Shown here: positions 6,453-43,226 of the stretch, piece by piece
Layout of the letters: each line of letters starts with the position of its first letter
How positions within the stretch are numbered: the stretch's first letter is position 1
Assembly (NCBI GenBank): GCA_963555705.1
Contig: OY743183.1
Coordinates: forward strand, 44,381,466-44,445,465
Direction: 5' to 3'
DNA length: 64,000 nt
Origin: Ligustrum vulgare
Lineage: Eukaryota; Streptophyta; Magnoliopsida; Lamiales; Oleaceae
Translations under genes and position numbers: made by a program
The notes under the pieces: model-generated
What the model saw: the letters and a program-made list of their open reading frames with translations, nothing else
The model's database searches: none
What the model was told of the DNA's origin: nothing

Positions 6453-7914
6453 AGTTCTTTAAATTAAAACATTTTTCGTTCTTTAAACTAAAACATTTTC
6501 GGGTTATTTAAATGTTTTTCAACACATTTTATAATATAATTTTATATCCTTAGAAATAATTTAATATTACTTTACTAAATTAGTTACACTATGATAAAGC
6601 AGAATATTTTTGAATAATCTTTTTTATATAATAAATTTAACAAAATTTCTTAATTACGGATCTTGAATACTTTTTTATAACAATAGAGAGTTTTCTATTT
6701 ATTTTTTAAATTATACTTATGATGCTTTTGATGTAATTTTTTCACATGTCCCACAAAAAAAAAAAAAAAAAGTTAGGATACATAATAAGATTAATAGTTA
6801 TATTAAAATAAATCATCCTATTAACTAAAAATAAATTTGTTAAAAAAAAAAATTAAATTGTCCTTTTTTGGAATTTGAACGAAGCATACTATGTTTGACA
6901 AAATATTTTTAAACAACATGCTTTAACATTACTTTTTAATCACACATTTTTTCTCTCTATTTTTCAATCACGAATTTTTACCTCAAAAACATCACATTCT
7001 TTGTTTTTAAACAAAAAATCTTAACTACCAATATTTTTTATATAATTTAATATTACTCAAAACTGTTTTTTTTTTTTTTTTTTGGAACAAATGCTTGTGG
7101 TACTCAAAAGTGTAATTCAAATTTGCAATCATTACACTTTCAAAAATGCAATCATTTTTATTTATGTTTTAATTCTTGTGTTTTGAACAAAAACTTTCCA
7201 AATTTAGTAAGTACATTTTGACGGAAAAGTGTGTGTGTTATTTTTAGTAAAAAACTTTATTTTTATATATAGATAGATATCAAAGTAGATATCGGTTACC
7301 ATACTAGAACAACAATCCGGATCATGATTTGGTTGTTACTTATTGATATCAATTGTAATATTACATTGTATCTTTGATAGCAATTATATTATTCTCACTT
7401 ATCCTCTATAATTGTATTACCTATATTAACAACGTCTAGTATATTGGCCAAAAAAAACAAAAAAAAAACAAAACGTCTAGTATAAAATATTATTCGGTAT
7501 GTATCCACAAATTATTACATTCATTCTACAAACACTATATTCTCTACAACAGTGTCATTGTCGTGGAGATGAAATTCTCCATTTACCAATCTTACTCTCA
7601 ATTTTAACACGCTTAAGAGCATCGTCTTTAGCCTCTTTAAATTAATACTGTTAAACAAACCATAAATATCAACCGAAAGTTGCACCGAATTAATGTGAGT
7701 CATTGATTTCGATATTAATGTTCAGGCCAGCCCGAGGCAACCAAAAAATTGGGATCTTTATGCGAATTTTAAATGGGGCCTTGAACGAAAAAATTATTAA
7801 ATAAAATCGTTCGAATAATAAAGTAAACTATCAAGATATGAAATTAAATTTACTCTTTTAACATTTTTGAATGAATTAAGCATTTTTATTAAAAACTTTG
7901 AACTATCTATTAAA
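6453..7914. other. AT-rich spacer with a MITE fragment
   Basis: No gene. About 6880-7030 holds a fragment of the Tourist-like MITE family common in this window (ACTTTTTAATCACACATTTT, then TTTTACCTC). Near 7722-7790 a CAGGCCAGCCCGAGG motif resembles the GGCCGGCC-type end of the element at 29896. A matching reversed end at about 13070 suggests that the foldback element at 7915 landed in an older copy of that family. Confidence 0.4.
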
Positions 7915-18052: not shown

Positions 18053-19789
18053 AACTCCCACTTACACTAGATCCAATCGCTTATGTATTTAATATCATAA
18101 GAGTCCACATGACAATCATGTTTATTCAGTGACAACTCTTTGTCAGCAGATCTGCAATGTCTTACATTTGTGAGAAATAGTTCTTTCGTTTTGTCATTTA
18201 TTTGTATTACTTCTCTAGTGAGATAATACTGCCTTAACATACGTTTAGGTCACTGACGAGACTTTAGTTTCTTTACTTTGCGTGATAGCTCCATTGTTAT
18301 CACTATAACAATGTTAGAAACCACTCTAAGTTCATTAATGAACTTATTGATCCAGACCACAACCTTTTCTGTTTCTTAAACAGCAATGCATTAGACTTCC
18401 TTTATTGAATCAGCGATTATTTCTTGTTTGAAATATTTCCAACTAATCGCTCCATTAAGAGTAAACATATTGAGATTCGCCATCTTCCTAGTCTAACTAG
18501 AAGTTAGCACTAATGAACTCTTAGTTCACTTTCTCCATTTAAAATCTTAAGATTTTATCTATACATGCAATTTGGGATAATCGAAGCATTCTTTTAGATC
18601 TATCTCTATAGATCTTTATCTCTAAGATATAAGTTGCTTCTCCCACATCTTGCATGGAAATTTTTTTTTTACAACCATAATTTTATCGAATAATCACAAA
18701 GACGTCGTTTTCATTAATAATATGTCATCCACATATAATATTAAGAATACGATATCACTACCACTTGCCCTTTATAAACACACAGTTCCTATTTATTTAT
18801 TTTTGATAAAATCAAATATTTTGATTATCTCGTCAAAATAAATATACCAGCTCCTAAAGGCTTGTTTCGATTCAAAATTAAATAATAGATCTGCTATATA
18901 TTAAATACATGAAATATATTAGTAAGTATTTGGTCAAACGATTGGGCCTAGGGCATAACACTTACAAACTCTCACTTACACTAGATCCAATCCCTTATGT
19001 ATTTAATATCATAAGAGTCCACATGACAATCATGTTTATTCTGTGACAACTCTTTGTTAGCAGATCTGCAATGTCTTACATTTGTGGGAAATTGTTCTTT
19101 CCTTTTGTCATTTATTTGTATTAGTTCTCTAGTGAGACAATACTGCCAAAATTCACGTTTAGGTCACTGACGAGACTTTAGCTTCTTTACTTTGTGTGAT
19201 GGCTCCATTGTTATCACTATAACAATGTTAGAAACTACTCTAAGTTCATTAATGAACTTATTGATCCAGACCACAACCTTTTCTGTTTCTTAAACAGCAA
19301 TGCATTAGACTTCCTTTATTAAATCAGCGATTATTTCTTGTTTGAAATATTTCCAACTAATCGCTCCATTGAGAGTAAACATATTGAGATTCGCCATGTT
19401 CCTAGTCTAACTAGAAGTTAGCACTAATGAACTCTTAGTTCACTTTCTTCATTTAAAATCTTAAGATTTTATCTATACATGCAAATTGGGATAATTGAAG
19501 CGTTCTTTTAGATCTATCTCTATAGATCTTTATCTCTAGGATATAAGTTGCTTCTCCCACATCTTGCATGGAAAAAAATTTTTACAACCATAATTTTATC
19601 GAATAATCACAAAGACGTCGTTTTCATTAATAATATGTCATCCACATATAATATTAAGAATACGATATCACTACCAGTTGCCCTTTATAAACACACAATT
19701 CCTATTTATTTATTTTTGATAAAATCAAATATTTTGATTATCTCATCAAAATAAATATACCAGCTCCTAAAGGCTTGTTTCGATTCAAA
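17963..19789. repeat. 914-bp tandem duplication in the copia element
   Basis: 17963-18876 and 18877-19789 are near-identical direct repeats with only scattered point differences. The unit contains the last ~90 bases of the LTR, the purine-rich tract and about 820 bases of the 3' coding region. The duplication therefore created a second internal LTR end at about 18965. Confidence 0.9.
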
Positions 19790-36711: not shown

Positions 36712-36769
36712 TAACAAGGTGTTCAGCAATATTATTAAGCAAGTTTTATATTCAACACAATTTTTCAAT

Positions 36770-36977
36770 TGTTATAAATAATGTATATATGTGAATGACA
36801 TTACCATTATATCCCTGTAAACTTTACAATATTACGATTGTGCCATTGTCCACTCCTATAAATAGGAGCCTATACTTACCAATTTATTACACCAATTCTT
36901 GAAGAGAAATTCTCTCCTCTAAACTCTCTCCATTTCTCTCTCTATGTTGTTCTTATGATTTCGATGATTTTATAACA
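36770..36977 (+). repeat. 5' LTR
   Basis: 208 bases, TGTTATAA...TTATAACA, with no difference seen from the right LTR. CTATAAATAG at 36858-36867 is a strong TATA box, so transcription probably starts about 30 bases downstream. The bases after the LTR, CGTTATCAGCACGAGTC, are not a standard TGG-starting primer-binding site. The same post-LTR phrase is, from memory, common in one plant copia group. Confidence 0.92.
36866..36920 (+). promoter_or_regulatory. LTR promoter
   Basis: The TATA box CTATAAATAG (36858-36867) lies 110 bases before the LTR end, followed by a pyrimidine-rich CTCTCTCCATTTCTCTCTC leader. An identical copy lies in the 3' LTR (about 42988). In this position it would drive the element's sense RNA, antisense to the captured ORFs. 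Confidence 0.6.
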
Positions 36978-37116
36978 CGTTATCAGCACGAGTCTCTAAC
37001 CAATTGAGTAATAACGGGAGTATGCTCTACAGTTGCATCTAAATGATGAGCCTCTGTATCAGAAACCTGATTATTACTAACCAATGTTTCCTTTTCTCTC
37101 AAACTGAAAAAGAATG

Positions 37117-37430
37117 ATTCTGGCCGATCCAGATATCCGATCGACGATCGGCCACCGCCATCAGAACGGGCTTGTCAAGGAGAAGACTCGCCTAAAATTT
37201 GGCGCAGAACCAACGGCTGAAACAAAAGATATCGACCGAAGAAGAAAATCTGAAAAACTGTGCAAAAACAGATATCTGACCGAAAATTGAAATGCTTATT
37301 CCGGACGATTCTGAACTCCGATCGACGATCGGCCAGCGGCATATCAACGGGTTTTTCTAGGAGAAGACTCGACTGAAATTTGGCGCAAATCCAACGGTTA
37401 AAACGGAAGTTATTGTCCGGAGAAGAAGAT
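37117..37430 (+). repeat. Direct repeats of the leader, 181-bp period
   Basis: Two diverged copies (about 37117-37247 and 37298-37429) share CCGATCGACGATCGGCCA, GGAGAAGACTCG and AAATTTGGCGCA. The centre CGATCGACGATCG is a dyad. A third, degenerate start may follow at 37450. No long open frame conserves the repeat as protein. Confidence 0.75.
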
Positions 37431-37549
37431 GCTGGCGGACTGAAAAATGATGATTCCGGCCAAACGGTTGATCTTTTGGAAAATCGGAGACCACCGGCAT
37501 GTTCAGGACGCCGAGGCACATATTATGGTGATGGGTTAATTTTTCCGAT

Positions 37550-37608
37550 CACCGGCGCGTGGCGGCCGGCGGCGGCCGGCGGCGGCGGCGCGTGGCGGAT
37601 CCGGCGAT
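37550..37608. repeat. GC-rich GGCGGCCGGCGGC run
   Basis: Short tandem of CGGCGG-type units in an otherwise AT-rich element, downstream of the leader repeats. No coding meaning is evident. Confidence 0.7.
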
Positions 37609-37929
37609 GACGAAAGGCAGTTTGTCCGTTTTGATGAATTGGATTTTTCTATGATCTTATTTTTCTGTTTTGTGCAGTTTTTAAAATATTCCGGCGGTCG
37701 AACATGGCGGTTTTCTTAAAAACTGTTTTTGGAGCAATCCTGACGAGATTTTGAACTTCGGACCAAAAGTAAGTTTGTTCTAAATTAAATTTTAAACCTA
37801 TTGACGGTTTCAATTTATTCATATGAGCAATATATTAAAATATGGACGATTTTGCCCTTAATAATACATACAAGTATAATAATCGTAAATTAACGATTAA
37901 TATGTGATCAATTGAATTATATTATGCTG

Positions 37930-38110
37930 CCACCTACATGGTTGGTTTTACCACCTACATGGTTGGCTTTACCCGGTTTAATTATTTCATTATGTCGATT
38001 CCGCCTATATGGCCGGTTTAATTGTTTCATCTCGTTGATACCGTCTATATGGCTGGTTTAATTATTTCATCACGTTGACACCGCCTATATGGTCGGTATA
38101 TCAATTGAAT
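37930..38110 (+). repeat. Tandem repeat, about 54-bp unit
   Basis: Four or five units of the form CCGCCTATATGGCCGGTTTAA then TTATTTCAT.ACGTTGA, with drift between copies (CCACCTACATGGTTGG, CCGTCTATATGGCTGG, CCGCCTATATGGTCGG). Confidence 0.8.
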
Positions 38111-38702
38111 ACATATAAACACCTCAGTTGTTGGTTAATTCTAACATATTAGAGGGTTGTTGTCAACATATATACTTGGTGGTATAACCCCAGTATCGTT
38201 ATTGTTAATATATATATACAATATTATTGTTATTTGATACTTCATTAAATGATACCAGAAGTTATCAATACTAAAGTTAGAAAATATTTTATCAAATGAT
38301 ACCAGAAGTTATCATTACCAAAAGGTTGATAAATATTAATAAAATGTTTTATCCAATGGTACCAGAAGTTACCAATATCTGAATTTGAATGGGTGGATGA
38401 AAATTATTCAACAAGAGAATGTTGATGTATGATAAGATAATATCACATGATAGCACGGATATAGCTAATGTGAAAATAATCTCATCAGTATTATGAGATG
38501 AATGTTAGATGATAAGTGCCTGGAAAAGTTCTTGCACGAGCACTTATATATTCCAGAAGAAGTACATATTTACTCCAGAAGAAGTAAAAATTATCATCTA
38601 AACATACTGAAATGATATTATTATTGCTCCTGAAGAAGCATAAACGAGACATACATGCAAAATGCAAAAGGGGAAAACATTTATGATCCTCAAAATTAGA
38701 GA

Positions 38703-38906
38703 TGTGTTTCGGGAGTAGCCGTATCCTACCACCTCTGACCTTTTGAGGAAATAAAGAAAAAAGTGTGTTTCAAGAGTAAGAAATACTCCATACTCTACCA
38801 CTTTAAATCTTTGAGGTACACAAGATTAATACATTGATAAAATCCTAGAAATTTATGGTGTGTCTCAAGAGTGAGAATACTCCGTACTCTACCACCACCT
38901 ATTCTA
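38703..38906 (+). repeat. Three repeats next to the captured module
   Basis: Three diverged copies (38703-38749, 38762-38816, 38859-38906) of GTGTTTC.AGAGTA...TACTCTACCAC. The first two end TTTTGAGG or CTTTGAGG. The third loses that ending and passes into the LOG 3' region at about 38895-38910, which places the left junction of the captured sequence there. Confidence 0.65.
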
Positions 38907-38910
38907 GAGT

Positions 38911-39564
38911 TCACAAAGATAAATTTACATTAACCGGACTCCATTTTCGCTTGATTCCCCTTCCTTGCGACCAATCTATCTTTACTCCTGCTGGATCTTG
39001 TATTGGAATATATGATTGCAACTTATCCAGCAGTTCCTCGATAGTAGGAGCAGAAATAAGGATTCTCCTAGAAAATGGAGATATGAATCCCTGTTCCACA
39101 GCATAATCAAGAAATGTTAGCAAACCATCAAAGAAATTGTTTACATTTAAAAGCCCTATAGGCTTAGTATGGAGATCTAGTTGAGCCCATGAAGTAATAT
39201 TAAAGATTTCTTCTAAAGTACCAAAACCTCCAGGCAGGGCTATGAAGGCATCAGAACCATATAACATGCAAGTTATGCGTTCATGGATAGATAAGGTTTG
39301 TACTTCATGCCCTCGTGTTTTGCCTGCAATATCAGCTAAAGGAGTAGGTATAACACCTATCACTCTTGCTTTCTCTACTAGAGCGGATTGTGAAACACAA
39401 CCCATCAATCCACTGCTACCTCCTCCATACACGAGAGTGATACCTTTCTCTCCCAATTTCTTTCCTAAATCCACGGCTGCTTCTAGATACCCAAAACCTT
39501 TTCCCACTTTTGATCCACAAAATACACAGATAGTTTTGATCTGTCGAAATTTTGGTCCTTCCAT
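38911..39564 (-). CDS. LOG-type cytokinin riboside 5'-monophosphate phosphoribohydrolase
   Basis: 217 aa, the usual length of plant LOG enzymes, which release active cytokinin bases from nucleotide precursors in the cytosol and nucleus. Visible hallmarks: ICVFCGSKVGKG at residues 12-22, VYGGGSSGLMG at 45-55, VIGVIP at 68-73, HERITCM at 94-100 and the signature PGGFGTLEE at 111-119, then TSWAQLDLHTKPIGLLNVN (124-142) and FISPFSRRILISAPT (160-174). The arginine expected near the HxR motif is present (Arg96), but the neighbouring Lys of typical LOGs is Ile. The frame is intact and intronless, whereas plant LOG genes are normally multi-exon. It lies antisense inside an LTR retrotransposon, 248 bases from a second antisense ORF. 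No poly-A remnant is seen at its 3' side. It is either a processed capture or a retrogene; activity is unproven. The start is the only in-frame ATG before ICVFCGS. Confidence 0.9.
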   Translation of the reverse strand: MEGPKFRQIKTICVFCGSKVGKGFGYLEAAVDLGKKLGEKGITLVYGGGSSGLMGCVSQSALVEKARVIGVIPTPLADIAGKTRGHEVQTLSIHERITCMLYGSDAFIALPGGFGTLEEIFNITSWAQLDLHTKPIGLLNVNNFFDGLLTFLDYAVEQGFISPFSRRILISAPTIEELLDKLQSYIPIQDPAGVKIDWSQGRGIKRKWSPVNVNLSL

Positions 39565-39812
39565 TTTTGAAAGTAAAGAAGGAAAATGTTATTTTGGGAT
39601 GCATGAACTATGAAAAATGTTTGGCTATTTAAAACCGAAAAACTTCACTATTTACTGGTCGTTTTTCGAAAAAGTGAAGATTTACTTTTGACAAAATCAT
39701 CCTACTCACCTTTCGGCGATTTAATATTTTTAACCAGCCTTTATCAAAACTCGTGAAAGGAAACAGAAAAAATATTTTATATGTGCATATATATCAAATG
39801 ATTTACCTTGTA
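39565..39812 (-). other. Spacer between the two captured ORFs
   Basis: 248 bases without an ORF. On the minus strand AAG|GTAAATC at about 39799 resembles a 5' splice site. Pyrimidine-rich stretches before the LOG start (TTTTCCTTCTTTACTTTC) could serve as the acceptor region, although the nearest AG is not ideal. The spacer could be an intron, an intergenic region or the LOG promoter; the sequence does not decide. Confidence 0.3.
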
Positions 39813-40358
39813 TTAATGCTGCATAGCCAAAGCATCATTGTTTATAACAGCATGGCAAACATGATCTTTTGCTATTATATTTTTGAGACTATATCTCTCT
39901 TTATCGCTGATGAATTTAGCCCATAAAGATAGTAGCTCACGCTGCACATATCCACTAGGGTGCGTCTCAAGAGTCAATCGGATATCATCCAATGACTCCT
40001 TACTCAGTCCACCCTTAATGAAGTCTATCTTATCATCTCGATTTATGGATGAATATCCTATTGATTTACAACGGGTATCACATGTCCATCGAGCACATTT
40101 GTAGCAACTATTTAATCTTTTTGCTCTTCGCTTCTTTGCAAAAGTACTCTTACCTAAGCCAGGCTTGTGCTTAGAAAATGAATCTGGTAATTCACCAGCT
40201 AATCGAACTTTTGCTTCGATCAACCAGCGAACATCTTCTGACATGCCATGATCCATCAGCAACCTCAATCTTTCGAGCCTAATTCGATAAATTTTTCTCA
40301 AATCATTTACTGGAAGATTGGAATAATATTTGCGAATATTTGAAAGTATGATATCCAT
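39813..40358 (-). CDS. Uncharacterised 181-aa protein captured with LOG
   Basis: I do not recognise this family. The frame runs from 40358 (first ATG, MDIILSNIRKYYSNLP) to a stop at 39813. It stays open a further nine codons upstream (GRRLDPSK) to 40385 without an ATG, and an in-frame stop lies just beyond. The protein is basic and soluble, with no signal peptide or membrane segment. It has an amino-terminal helical block rich in Leu/Arg (DLRKIYRIRLERLRLL), a Lys/Arg cluster (KSTFAKKRRAKR) and a cysteine cluster CYKCARWTCDTRC (C-x2-C-x4-C-x3-C) that could bind zinc, followed by a mixed helical tail. The codons look normal and there are no internal stops. A GTAAAT splice-donor-like site follows the stop at about 39799, so the ORF may be the last part of a spliced unit that also includes LOG. 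Confidence 0.7.
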   Translation of the reverse strand: MDIILSNIRKYYSNLPVNDLRKIYRIRLERLRLLMDHGMSEDVRWLIEAKVRLAGELPDSFSKHKPGLGKSTFAKKRRAKRLNSCYKCARWTCDTRCKSIGYSSINRDDKIDFIKGGLSKESLDDIRLTLETHPSGYVQRELLSLWAKFISDKERYSLKNIIAKDHVCHAVINNDALAMQH

Positions 40359-41909
40359 TTTTGATGGATCTAGCCTTCTTCCCAAATCATCTATTTAAAT
40401 GCATTATTCAACGCGTAAAAGAGCGGCGGCTCCGCGTGTCAGTGATATGGATTCCATCAAGAAATAATGGAATAAATTATTGAAAAGGTGAGATAATATG
40501 CCATTACCTTTTTCGATATAAGGGAAGATTTGGCGACAAGATTGAGATTATGAGATATTTCCTTGGATATTGTACCTGATTTTTCGGTATACTAAAAGTA
40601 ATAAAGGTATACTGATTTGAACTATATAGAATACTGATGAAATAAATGTTGTATTGAACCAGAAGTTCATACATATGTACAAGTGAAATATCTTATTGAA
40701 CCAGAAGTTCATACGTACAAGTGAAATATGTATATAGTATGAACCAGAAGCTCATAAATGAAATATACATTGTATTGAACCAGAAGTTTAGCGATATTGT
40801 ATTGAATCAAATATTCATACATAGAAATGAAATAAAACCGTATAGAACCAGAAGTTCTATAATAAACGGTTAGATTATCAAAAGTTCCAAATTATTTTCT
40901 ATGAGAATAACTTATTCAGAAATTGTTTATCATACAACAATATTCTATGTCAAACAGGGAATAGCTCAAGAAGCTTTATTATTTGTAAAAGTGCGATATG
41001 CATACACTCCACCAAAGCGCACTGAGATATATGATTGAAATTACATCCCTAAAAGAATGACATGTGTTATGGCATTTTAGCCGATTGATAATATTTGAGA
41101 ACATTATGGTGAAAACACGCCTGAAGCGTAATTATGCCTGAAGCATAATGACTATCGATTCCAAAAATAAATATCTCTTGAATGATTGAAATGATTCCTT
41201 TGAGGCTAAATACTCAAAGTAAGTAAAAGGGACATAGTCAAATGATGAGATATTCAGGTACCTGATGATAGAACATATAAAGAGATCTCTCCACGTTATA
41301 TTGAGATGGAATCGATAAATAAGTCGACTGCATACCCTCTTATGAAATAAGATTGATGAAATCATAATTCTTTGGCCAAGTATGAAACCCTAATGTAGGG
41401 ATTATTGTTCAAGGACCTGAAGTCCAAATGCTTAAATGTGTAAAGCCAGTAATTATATGTACAAATGAAAAATATTTCACAGTCGTAAAAGACGACTAGT
41501 TGCGCGCGAAATTTTTCATAGAACTGGCATGACATATGGTGGATAGACTATAGTCTAAATCACTAGCTTGAGCTCCTTGATATACCAATGAGTGAGATCA
41601 AAATGTATGATTCTCATCTCGGTACTTTGGGAGTATTCTTTGATGTACCAGTTGATCGCGGTACGTTGGGATTTCAAGTAAAATGATTGTAGATTATATG
41701 TCGAAATTGATATCTATTTCAATGATTGATTATGCTCCTGCAAAATTAGAAATTGCAGTTTATAAAGTGCAAGAACATACATGTATAAATCATTGAAAGA
41801 TTCAATATGCCCAGATTAGTATCACTATAGAATGATACAAATGACTCCATGATATAATATGTTGAAAGTGAAATTGGAGTGTACTATTTATGACATCTGG
41901 GAAATTGAT
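40359..41909 (+). other. Non-coding interior of the LTR element
   Basis: No gag or pol motif on either strand. 40386-40540 is probably the 5' flank of the captured module. From 40600 the sequence is made of short AT-rich phrases and the recurring hairpins. The dyads 41198-41219 (CTTTGAG/CTCAAAG), 41792-41806 (ATTGAA/TTCAAT) and 41819-41838 (GTATCA/TGATAC) belong to the same style with other loops. Confidence 0.5.
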
Positions 41910-42175
41910 TATTCACTAGAAGTGAATACGAAAATGAATATTCACCAGAAGTGAATTTGAAATTGATTATTCACTAGAAGTGAATTTGAAAATGAATATT
42001 TAATTATTCACTAGAAGTGAAAGATGCAATCTATGAAAGTGAATTATAGATTTGATTATTCACCAGAAGTGAATTCTAAATTTGATTATTCACCAGAAGT
42101 GAAAAATACAATGAAAAGATTCGTGATTGCACCAATATACATGTAATATTCCATGAAAGGAATAAATACGCGTTG

Positions 42176-42869
42176 CACTCTTTTTCCCTTAGCTGAGGTT
42201 TTGTCCCACAGGGTTTTCATAGCAAGTTTTTTAATGAGGCAACAGTTGAGGCGTATTGATGAAAATTAATGAGAATAATGCACTCTTTTTCCCTTCGCTG
42301 AGGTTTTGTCCCACAGGGTTTTCCTAGCAAGGTTTTTGAGGCATCATCATAGCTATCAACAAGCTATAATTCAGCAACACATTGTTATACTGGAATGATA
42401 TCAACAAATGAAGAAAATCATACACATCTTATGAAGAATGTTATGATATCGACTACACACAAGAAGATTTTCATATATATTCCAGAAGAAAGATGATATC
42501 ATTATTCAAAAGGTTCATGAATACTTGATTGCACACTTCAGGGGGAGAATCATGCTGTCATGCTGTACTCTTTTTCCTTCGTCCAGGTTTTGTCCCACAG
42601 GGTTTTCCTGACAAGGTTTTAACGAGGCAGCGGCTGTACTCTTTTTCCTTCGTTCAGATTTTGTCCCATTGGGTTTTACTGACAAGGTTTTAACGAGGCA
42701 GCACTGAAGCACTGAAGAACTTCAAAGATTCAATACATGATTTGTTCTACTTGAACATTAAGACTCAACGATTGACGATGGCCAATATCAGGGGGAGCAA
42801 CTGTACTCTTTTTCCTTCGCTCAAGTTTTATCCCATTGGGTTTTCTTAGCAAGGTTTTAACGAGGCAGA
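42176..42869 (+). repeat. Five copies of the pre-PPT box
   Basis: Copies start at about 42176, 42282, 42566, 42636 and 42803. Each reads ACTCTTTTTCCTTCG, then AGGTTTTGTCCCACAGGG, TTTTCCT.GCAAGGTTTT and AACGAGGCA. Two extra purine tracts (CAGGGGGAG at about 42538-42546 and 42789-42797) follow some of them, as if the unit box plus tract had been multiplied. One such box upstream of the 3' LTR is, from memory, a common feature of plant copia elements. Confidence 0.85.
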
Positions 42870-42887
42870 CAATTGCGTAATATGTCA

Positions 42888-42899
42888 TTCAAGGGGGAG
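42888..42899 (+). other. Polypurine tract
   Basis: TTCAAGGGGGAG immediately before the 3' LTR, the expected primer for plus-strand DNA synthesis. Confidence 0.85.
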
Positions 42900-43107
42900 T
42901 GTTATAAATAATGTATATATGTGAATGACATTACCATTATATCCCTGTAAACTTTACAATATTACGATTGTGCCATTGTCCACTCCTATAAATAGGAGCC
43001 TATACTTACCAATTTATTACACCAATTCTTGAAGAGAAATTCTCTCCTCTAAACTCTCTCCATTTCTCTCTCTATGTTGTTCTTATGATTTCGATGATTT
43101 TATAACA
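42900..43107 (+). repeat. 3' LTR
   Basis: 208 bases, identical by eye to 36770-36977, followed by the TSD TCAAT. Confidence 0.92.
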
Positions 43108-43226
43108 TCAATATCACTTATTAATTACAAATATTTTTTTAAATTATTTTTTAATCATAAATTCTACCTCAAAAATACCAAAAAGTAAAAATAACGACAA
43201 CTACATAACATCCGAACACAGACTAA

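Follow-up and report, generated by a model that had tools for sequence, protein, structure and literature searches.

An antisense gene pair for a flexivirus-type nucleic-acid-binding protein and a LOG-like protein in a recently amplified LTR retrotransposon family of Ligustrum vulgare

Structure of the element

The window analysed here is a stretch of 64,000 nucleotides from Ligustrum vulgare (contig OY743183.1). It contains a long terminal repeat (LTR) retrotransposon with two genes in antisense orientation, one for a LOG-like protein and one for a nucleic-acid-binding protein (NABP) of the type known from flexiviruses, together called the cassette below. An earlier note on this DNA had described identical 208-bp LTRs, a perfect target-site duplication and two intact antisense open reading frames (ORFs), all of which were confirmed at 36770-43107. 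The features are as follows, with positions in the window.

36765-36769, no strand: left copy of the target-site duplication TCAAT, exact
36770-43107, window copy: LTR retrotransposon, 6,338 bp, defined by the LTR pair and the target-site duplication
36770-36977, plus strand: 5' LTR, 208 bp, TG..CA ends, TGTTATAA...TTATAACA
36978-36992, plus strand: putative primer-binding region CGTTATCAGCACGAG, adjoining the 5' LTR
38244-38645, plus strand: first hairpin cluster, 6 sites with C(CAGAA or CTGAA)G loops, stems of 5-8 pairs with one bulged 3' base allowed
38757-40362, minus strand: segment homologous to a diverged lineage (38969-40362 and the pieces 38757-38807 and 38850-38894)
38911-39564, minus strand: LOG-like ORF, 217 aa, catalytic Arg and PGGFGTLEE present, pocket Lys replaced by Ile, basic C-terminus ending in VNVNLSL
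39565-39812, minus strand: AT-rich spacer between the NABP and LOG ORFs, 248 bp, TATA-like words at 39781 and 39793
39813-40358, minus strand: NABP ORF, 181 aa, with C-x2-C-x4-C-x3-C and a basic stretch, flexivirus-type nucleic-acid-binding / cysteine-rich
40648-42498, plus strand: second hairpin cluster, 15 sites (40659 to 42482), 11 with stems of at least 5 pairs
42173-42869, plus strand: imperfect 70-nt repeat in five copies (TCTTTTTCC...TTTTGTCCCACAGGGTTTT...AAGGTTTTAACGAGGCA), ahead of the 3' LTR
42891-42899, plus strand: polypurine tract AAGGGGGAG, adjoining the 3' LTR
42900-43107, plus strand: 3' LTR, 208 bp
43108-43112, no strand: right copy of the target-site duplication TCAAT, exact

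Sequence comparison of the two LTRs gave 208 identical positions out of 208. As the earlier note had stated, no gag or pol is visible: Pfam domains of this kind were absent from six sense-strand interior pieces, one sense ORF and one further antisense ORF, the six pieces giving two unrelated sub-threshold matches and nothing more. This test covered pieces of the element interior, since a reading of the whole interior is interrupted by stops. Because no gag or pol match was obtained in the pieces tested, the element appears to be non-autonomous. Features of its primer-binding site and tail suggest that it may be copia-like. A complement of the CGTTATCAGCACGAG region suited to self-priming, 8-14 nt long and starting 0-5 nt inside, was not found in the LTR. 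The TATA-like words in the spacer are a possible, if weak, candidate for a LOG promoter. The leader contains a 133-bp direct repeat (37117-37249 and 37298-37430, 80% identical), followed by a GC-rich CGG stretch at about 37550-37600. Within the 64-kb window Rfam gave no match at gathering thresholds, and no tRNA gene was found.

Copies in the genome

The genome (1.385 Gb, 51 contigs) was searched with short words. A 27-base LOG word with at most two mismatches was found at 7,070 sites and a 27-base NABP word at 2,931, while a degenerate 24-base word for canonical LOGs (MH[QE]RKA.M), which misses genes with a different or an intron-split motif, was found at 11; the control for each word, reversed in the case of the LOG word, gave 0. 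The first 100 exact LOG sites all lie on contig C1. For 67 of them an exact NABP site is located on the same strand, 875-924 bp upstream, with 875 and 887 bp as the two main spacings; likewise, 67 of the 99 exact NABP sites listed on C1 have a LOG partner. Were every LOG site a full element, the family would make up about 3% of the genome, an upper guess because fragments are counted too.

From 39 other best matches, 18 near-identical copies were fetched, together with two diverged copies, L027 and L028. The NABP and LOG frames are full length and open in 18/18 near-identical copies, a figure that is biased upwards because these copies were chosen among the best matches. They contain both flanking regions, with internal deletions in some (L015), and LTR sequence at both ends (incomplete in L010 and L023). 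The 5-bp target duplication is exact in 17 of 19 copies, window included; the exceptions are again L010 and L023, whose LTRs were partly matched, so that their ends are extrapolated. The LTR pair is identical over the aligned length in 15/19 copies (175 bp in L010), with differences in L012, L014, L020 and L023. The fetched copies are therefore very recent, in agreement with the note's description of a recent element, and the note's idea that the element spreads the gene is also supported. The arrangement of both frames between LTRs is not due to chance. Having been selected by cassette identity, the 18 copies were not used to contrast conservation between their parts.

In the diverged copies L027 and L028 the NABP is open over the matched part and the LOG carries two stops in each.

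The nucleic-acid-binding protein

The 181-aa protein was listed as unknown in the earlier note, a description that can now be replaced. It matches the Pfam families Viral_NABP (PF05515; 34.5 bits, cut-off 23; 2.6e-8) and Carla_C4 (PF01623; 25.2 bits, cut-off 20.9), and both profiles match all 18 members scanned (window and 17 relatives) at E <= 0.01. By these profile matches the protein is a member of the flexivirus nucleic-acid-binding/cysteine-rich family, here encoded in a retrotransposon and not in a flexivirus genome.

The protein database holds 335 relatives at E <= 0.01. Among the 120 listed, those named come from Orobanche, Populus, Acer and Xanthoceras, and many are exactly 182 aa long. 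The pattern C-x2-C-x4-C-x3-C occurs in 105 and a basic stretch like KKRRAKR in 104 of these 120, some of which are fragments. An alignment of 75 members shows 9 invariant columns and many more that are almost invariant. Other eudicots have relatives of the LOG-like protein as well as of the NABP. In one Orobanche gracilis gene model (P0022) the NABP is fused to a LOG piece, which, as the one such case, suggests that the pairing exists there too.

Comparison of folds was less informative. With a model of moderate quality (pLDDT 68; an earlier one with pLDDT 51 was too poor), a Foldseek search against viral models gave nothing below E 0.001. Its first 22 rows are weak (E 0.035-2.5, low TM-scores); 20 of them are named, and 18 are called silencing suppressor or nucleic-acid/RNA-binding protein. 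All 20 come from flexiviruses. Against the PDB the model gave three matches with E above 6, none of them credible. The relation to viruses is thus supported by the Pfam matches, the fold matches being weak and the PDB offering no credible one. Two pattern scans of viral contigs found no NABP relatives.

The transfer may have run in the reverse direction, flexiviruses having acquired a plant or transposon gene, so that the element would hold no virus-derived gene. In favour of this, the proteins of element type are numerous and longer, many of them with exactly 182 aa, and neither Pfam nor fold matches can tell the direction. A host gene outside repeats from which the NABP could have come was not recognised, which argues weakly against such a course, the genomic setting of the 120 listed relatives being outside the scope of this analysis. 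We regard this direction as possible, although on the unlikely side.

Cysteine-rich proteins of this type from potato virus H, potato virus M and a mandarivirus suppress RNA silencing, and p12 of chrysanthemum virus B is a transcription factor causing hyperplasia (PMC3689765, PMC12172455).

A second, diverged lineage with the same pair

A Xanthoceras NABP was used as query against the genome, and 150 of 8,154 candidates were scored. A diverged group of 27 ranks first with 65-73% identity, the 123 others reaching 59-62%; stop-free sequences make up 10/27 and 110/123, respectively, in this list ranked by score. In all 12 diverged loci that were cut out (L029-L040), NABP is followed by LOG sequence on the same strand, with 53-64% protein identity to the window over the longer matches. 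Both frames are without stops or breaks in four of the 12 (L030, L031, L033 and L035). L029 and L032 are near-identical neighbours on C8.

The 9.9-kb regions round L030, L031 and L033 (L041-L043) have interiors in common. Direct terminal repeats unlike the window LTR were found in L043 (1,993 bp at 99.7%) and L041 (552 bp at 99.5%). In L043 a sequence resembling a primer-binding site, GGCGCCGTTGCCGGGG, and a purine tract (TTTGGGGGTG) adjoin the LTRs, and because their positions set the reading strand of the element, the NABP-LOG pair is carried in sense. In one of the three long regions, L042, an integrase core (PF00665, 7.6e-10) lies on the strand of NABP and upstream of it; about 14 bp separate the end of the integrase frame from the interior common to the three regions, and a partial second copy of the integrase is found close by. 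The lineage apparently consists of Ty3/gypsy-type elements, perhaps Athila-like (a group marked by a tRNA-Asp-type primer-binding site), to judge by the sequence next to the L043 LTR and by the integrase.

DNA homology between the window and this lineage covers 38969-40362, up to the NABP start codon, and two short repeat pieces downstream; the upstream edge lies 4 bp ahead of the NABP ATG. The same module, antisense in one LTR lineage and apparently sense in the other, has therefore either passed from one LTR family to another or come to both from a source that they share.

Two further observations concern this lineage. Downstream of LOG, at 38695-38894, the window contains short repeats (CTCAAGAGTGAGAATACTCCGTACTCTACCAC and variants), pieces of which match L041 and L043; they may represent a 3' end or a regulatory sequence that the cassettes have in common. 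At the position preceding NABP, a 264-aa frame with no Pfam match is found in L041 (6977-7768, minus strand) and L043 (6679-7470, minus strand); it may be a gag that has diverged, or else an accessory gene in addition to NABP and LOG.

The LOG-like protein

The antisense, intronless LOG-type frame reported earlier at 38911-39564 matches PF03641 at 7.4e-34. Its closest solved relative is Arabidopsis At2g37210, and it is about 51% identical to Arabidopsis LOG3. Both hallmarks of a LOG phosphoribohydrolase, PGGxGTxxE and the catalytic Arg, are retained (PGGFGTLEE and HERI), whereas the Lys of the adenine/prenyl pocket (Lys100 of CgLOG) is replaced by Ile. In a bacterial LOG, substitution of crucial AMP-binding or catalytic residues by Ala, S19 excepted, nearly abolishes activity; Lys100 is named there among the adenine-binding residues, the substituted residues not being itemised in the part concerned (PMC4979012).

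For a broader view, 124 element-type LOGs (120 best database matches, the window and L041-L043) were compared with 120 canonical ones. "Element-type" denotes a high search rank, and residence in LTR elements was seen here for the window family and L041-L043. The catalytic Arg is present in 115/124 element-type and 120/120 canonical LOGs, the pocket Lys in 6/124 and 120/120. Conversely, a basic patch near the C-terminus occurs in 105/124 and LxLxL within the last 12 residues in 97/124 of the element-type LOGs, and both in 0/120 of the canonical ones. The EAR repression motif occurs more commonly as LxLxL than in its other form (PMC9956375). The C-terminal sequence of L041 and L043 is LDLELRL. 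In L041-L043 the catalytic Arg is gone (HESM) and the motif reads PGDFG[T/A]LEQ, with loss of a glycine and of the last glutamate.

We infer from repeated gene copies, for example in Reevesia pubescens, that many other element-type LOGs lie in transposons. This species contributes 36 of the 120 listed element-type rows, annotated as genes. Annotated "LOG family" counts in such genomes may thus be inflated by transposons.

In a tree built from 61 selected rows, 34 element-type LOGs stand apart from 26 canonical ones and one bacterial sequence with support 99/97; the rooting of this tree is unsure because the long bacterial branch may falsely join the canonical rows. Two Xanthoceras sorbifolium sequences (P0122, P0123), which retain the pocket Lys and seemingly contain two LOG stretches, stand at the base of the element-type clade and are a possible link between both groups.

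These data bear on the capture route proposed earlier, in which the element would recently have taken up a spliced host LOG mRNA by template switching. The frame is indeed intronless, and plant LTR elements are known to capture genes (PMC7264820). The separate clade, the distance to LOG3 and the differences in pocket and C-terminus nevertheless contradict a recent capture from a host gene of this genome, and the NABP partner common to a deeply diverged lineage argues in the same direction; we therefore consider it highly improbable. The part of the proposal that probably stands is the ultimate origin from a spliced mRNA: an ancient capture at the root of the element-type clade is likely. An antisense RNA acting on host LOG genes, also suggested in the earlier note, looks unlikely at this divergence.

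Selection on both genes

Pairwise dN/dS values (non-synonymous over synonymous divergence), a comparison recommended in the earlier note, were obtained by the Nei-Gojobori method and range from 0.18-0.27 in deep comparisons to near 1 between recent copies. Between the window and the diverged lineage, LOG gave dN 0.27-0.35 and dS 1.06-1.37 with ratios of 0.21-0.27 in 9/12 loci, the other three lacking a long enough match. The corresponding values for NABP are 0.25-0.30 and 1.04-1.62 with ratios of 0.18-0.25 in 12/12 loci. Diverged-lineage pairs at dS 0.19-0.42 show ratios of 0.17-0.35 for NABP and 0.38-0.54 for LOG. Both genes have thus been under purifying selection over deep time. The pattern is the one expected of a transposon gene, with constraint along the lineage of active copies and freedom to decay once a copy has inserted. 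In the diverged lineage the LOG looks less constrained than the NABP.

Within the window LTR family, LOG gave 0.027/0.161 against L028 (about 0.17) and 0.038/0.183 against L027 (about 0.21), and NABP 0.044/0.212 against L027 (0.21). Between L027 and L028 the values are 0.036/0.087 (0.41) for LOG and 0.042/0.224 (0.19) for NABP. These figures bear on the question whether the cassette is a mere passenger, useful in other elements and carried here by chance, with frames that are open since the burst is too recent for decay. For a passenger speak the identical LTR pairs, which leave little elapsed time, the scatter around 1 among close diverged-lineage copies and the antisense placement away from the LTR promoter. 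However, the low ratios within the family, at dS 0.16-0.18 for LOG and with 0.21 and 0.19 for NABP, indicate that replacement changes were still removed after the cassette had entered it, in a comparison that involves two diverged copies and is weaker for the L027-L028 LOG (0.41) and the window-L028 NABP (0.8). A passenger cassette is in our view a possible, yet rather unlikely, explanation.

Antisense ORFs of this kind have been discussed as RNA regulators (PMC7264820), and the antisense unit could accordingly act as RNA, as a source of double-stranded or small RNA controlling the element or LOG genes, rather than through its proteins. The deep conservation at the protein level with dN/dS of about 0.2 and the sense placement of the same pair in the other lineage favour a coding function, which makes an RNA role improbable.

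Hairpin array on the sense strand

Outside the cassette, the word CCAGAAG occurs 14 times on the sense strand and 0 times on the other (shuffled mean 0.17), and C[CT][AT]GAAG 21 times against 1 (shuffled mean 0.82). The closing C of the first cluster lies at 38255, 38302, 38362, 38553, 38575 and 38629. Of the 21 CAGAA-type sites, which flank the antisense cassette on either side, 17 form stems of at least 5 pairs when one bulged 3' base is allowed. Under this rule the stem lengths add up to 116; when the 3' arms were re-dealt, the mean was 54 and the maximum 86, so that 0/5,000 reached 116. L027 and L028 show the same excess (61 vs 27.4 and 50 vs 23.0; 0/5,000 each), which was not seen at such loop sites in L043. 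The rest of the window gave a weak stem signal on one strand (190/5,000) and none on the other (4,802/5,000).

In the second cluster 14 sites, 13 of them distinct, were aligned. Their covariation score is 0.641, compared to 0.183 after shuffling (0/500) and at most 0.143 when slid; cells changed on both sides number 19 vs 7.5. Weaker measures are pairs with a double change (5 vs 3.5; 42/500) and further pair types (10 vs 6.7; 8/500). Since the sites are tandem relatives, these shuffle counts are not probabilities. Folding-energy z values of five stretches were -3.25, -0.75, -0.92, +0.82 and -1.82, so one of five is supported, and its predicted fold (z -3.25) pairs arms of different sites. The hairpin claim accordingly stands on covariation and the re-dealt arms. 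Being strand-specific, the array is read as an RNA signal; at a guess, it could be a packaging signal or an NABP-binding site. Outside the element, identical words CCTAGTCTAACTAGAAGTTAGCACTAA at 18497 and 19411, about 900 bp apart, form a stem of the same loop type.

Interpretation

The reading to which we give roughly an even chance is that the window element belongs to a recently amplified non-autonomous LTR family carrying an old transposon-borne accessory pair that serves as a counter-defence and host-manipulation kit. The family would have amplified very recently to very high copy number, with gag-pol presumably supplied in trans, and its antisense module would provide a flexivirus-type NABP and, downstream of it, a diverged LOG-like protein. 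Expressed from the minus strand, the NABP would dampen RNA silencing as its viral relatives do and perhaps have a nuclear role. The LOG-like protein may set free active cytokinin or related bases in cells of the meristem. Alternatively, as many relatives have a basic tail with a terminal LxLxL (the EAR motif, to which TOPLESS-type corepressors are recruited), it may act as a nuclear recruiter of corepressors. Together with NABP, either role would favour copying of the element in dividing cells.

Structure, site counts, homology, pairing and deep-time purifying selection are matters of observation. Several points weigh against the reading built on them, beginning with expression, biochemical activities, benefit to the element and mobilisation in trans, all of which we infer from sequence. 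Since the LOG word is more than twice as frequent as the NABP word, many LOG copies lack a well-matching NABP partner. Most fetched copies are so young that their open frames prove nothing for the window family, and the stops in the LOG of L027 and L028 stand on the same side. No autonomous partner element was identified for the window family, and its putative copia-type label comes from the primer-binding site and tail. In L042, no LTR pair was shown to enclose both integrase and NABP. With the catalytic residues lost in L041-L043, enzymatic release of cytokinin can hardly be what all these proteins do, and the window tail VNVNLSL approximates LxLxL and contains no EAR motif in the strict sense (LxLxL or DLNxxP). 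As to selection, the dS values above 1 between the window and the diverged lineage are close to saturation, the window-L028 comparison of NABP gives 0.029/0.036 (0.8), the diverged-lineage LOG is moderately constrained at dS 0.2-0.27 (0.38-0.54), and close pairs of that lineage (dS below 0.08) scatter from about 0.45 to above 3.

A further-reaching version is rather doubtful in our estimation. In it, a mobile module of an RNA-virus-type silencing suppressor and a re-purposed LOG with a nuclear repressor-recruiting tail would be exchanged between unrelated LTR families of eudicots; read in antisense here, it would be accompanied by about 20 CAGAA-loop hairpins serving as a packaging or NABP-binding code. 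If this were true, the success of the module would be visible in the more than 7,000 LOG sites of one genome. For annotation, the data are a warning that in such genomes most "LOG" sequences may be transposon-borne and unrelated to cytokinin metabolism.

Comparison with known systems

AlkB domains occur also in plant RNA viruses. In orchids, Ty3/gypsy elements contain an ORF for an AlkB-type demethylase, which like the NABP is an RNA-directed extra ORF gained by plant LTR elements, yet it encodes another protein and is gypsy-type only (PMC9289625). The repeated motif of the window element is a strand-specific RNA hairpin, unlike that of VANDAL transposons. Their anti-silencing VANC proteins and their element class are unrelated to those of the window element. 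The likeness lies in an element-encoded counter-defence and repeated motifs in the element (PMC5735166).

The NABPs of carlaviruses, vitiviruses, pruneviruses and mandariviruses share with the element protein a basic stretch followed by a zinc-finger-like Cys cluster and the families PF05515 and PF01623 (PMC3689765, PMC12172455). The element protein differs in its length of about 182 aa, compared to 62-170 aa in the first 22 viral Foldseek matches, its retrotransposon location and its LOG partner; silencing suppression would be its function by analogy.

Extra ORFs are known in SIRE-type copia elements too (PMC6317226), and those of plant gypsy elements are mostly without known protein domains (PMC9289625). 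A search of titles and starts of abstracts in the open-licence literature found no report of a flexivirus-type NABP in a plant retrotransposon or of an NABP-LOG pair. Already known are LOG domains in gypsy-type LTR elements and antisense extra ORFs. Ty3/gypsy LTR retrotransposons with LOG (YgdH) domains, described from Citrus and Populus and attributed to Steinbauerova et al. 2011, resemble the present case in that several consensus sequences carry a LOG-type extra domain; those elements are gypsy-type, and the survey that lists them reports no domain gain in copia-type ones and does not mention an NABP partner in the sections covered (PMC9289625). Here, the pair is found in antisense in a non-autonomous, presumably copia-like element and also in sense in another lineage.

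The aORF-3R of Grande, RIRE2, Retand and PvRetro13 is likewise an antisense ORF between LTRs, present in most copies and nuclear in some cases, but described without clear protein similarity (PMC7264820). This 2020 review, in the part concerned, presents antisense extra ORFs in general in that way and holds that the lack of similarity to transposons or viruses argues against one proposed origin (PMC7264820). In the present element, by contrast, gag-pol was not found in the pieces tested, and one antisense extra ORF has curated viral relatives known as silencing suppressors and is paired with a LOG in two deeply diverged lineages, so that the question whether plant retrotransposons carry virus-like anti-silencing genes becomes directly testable.

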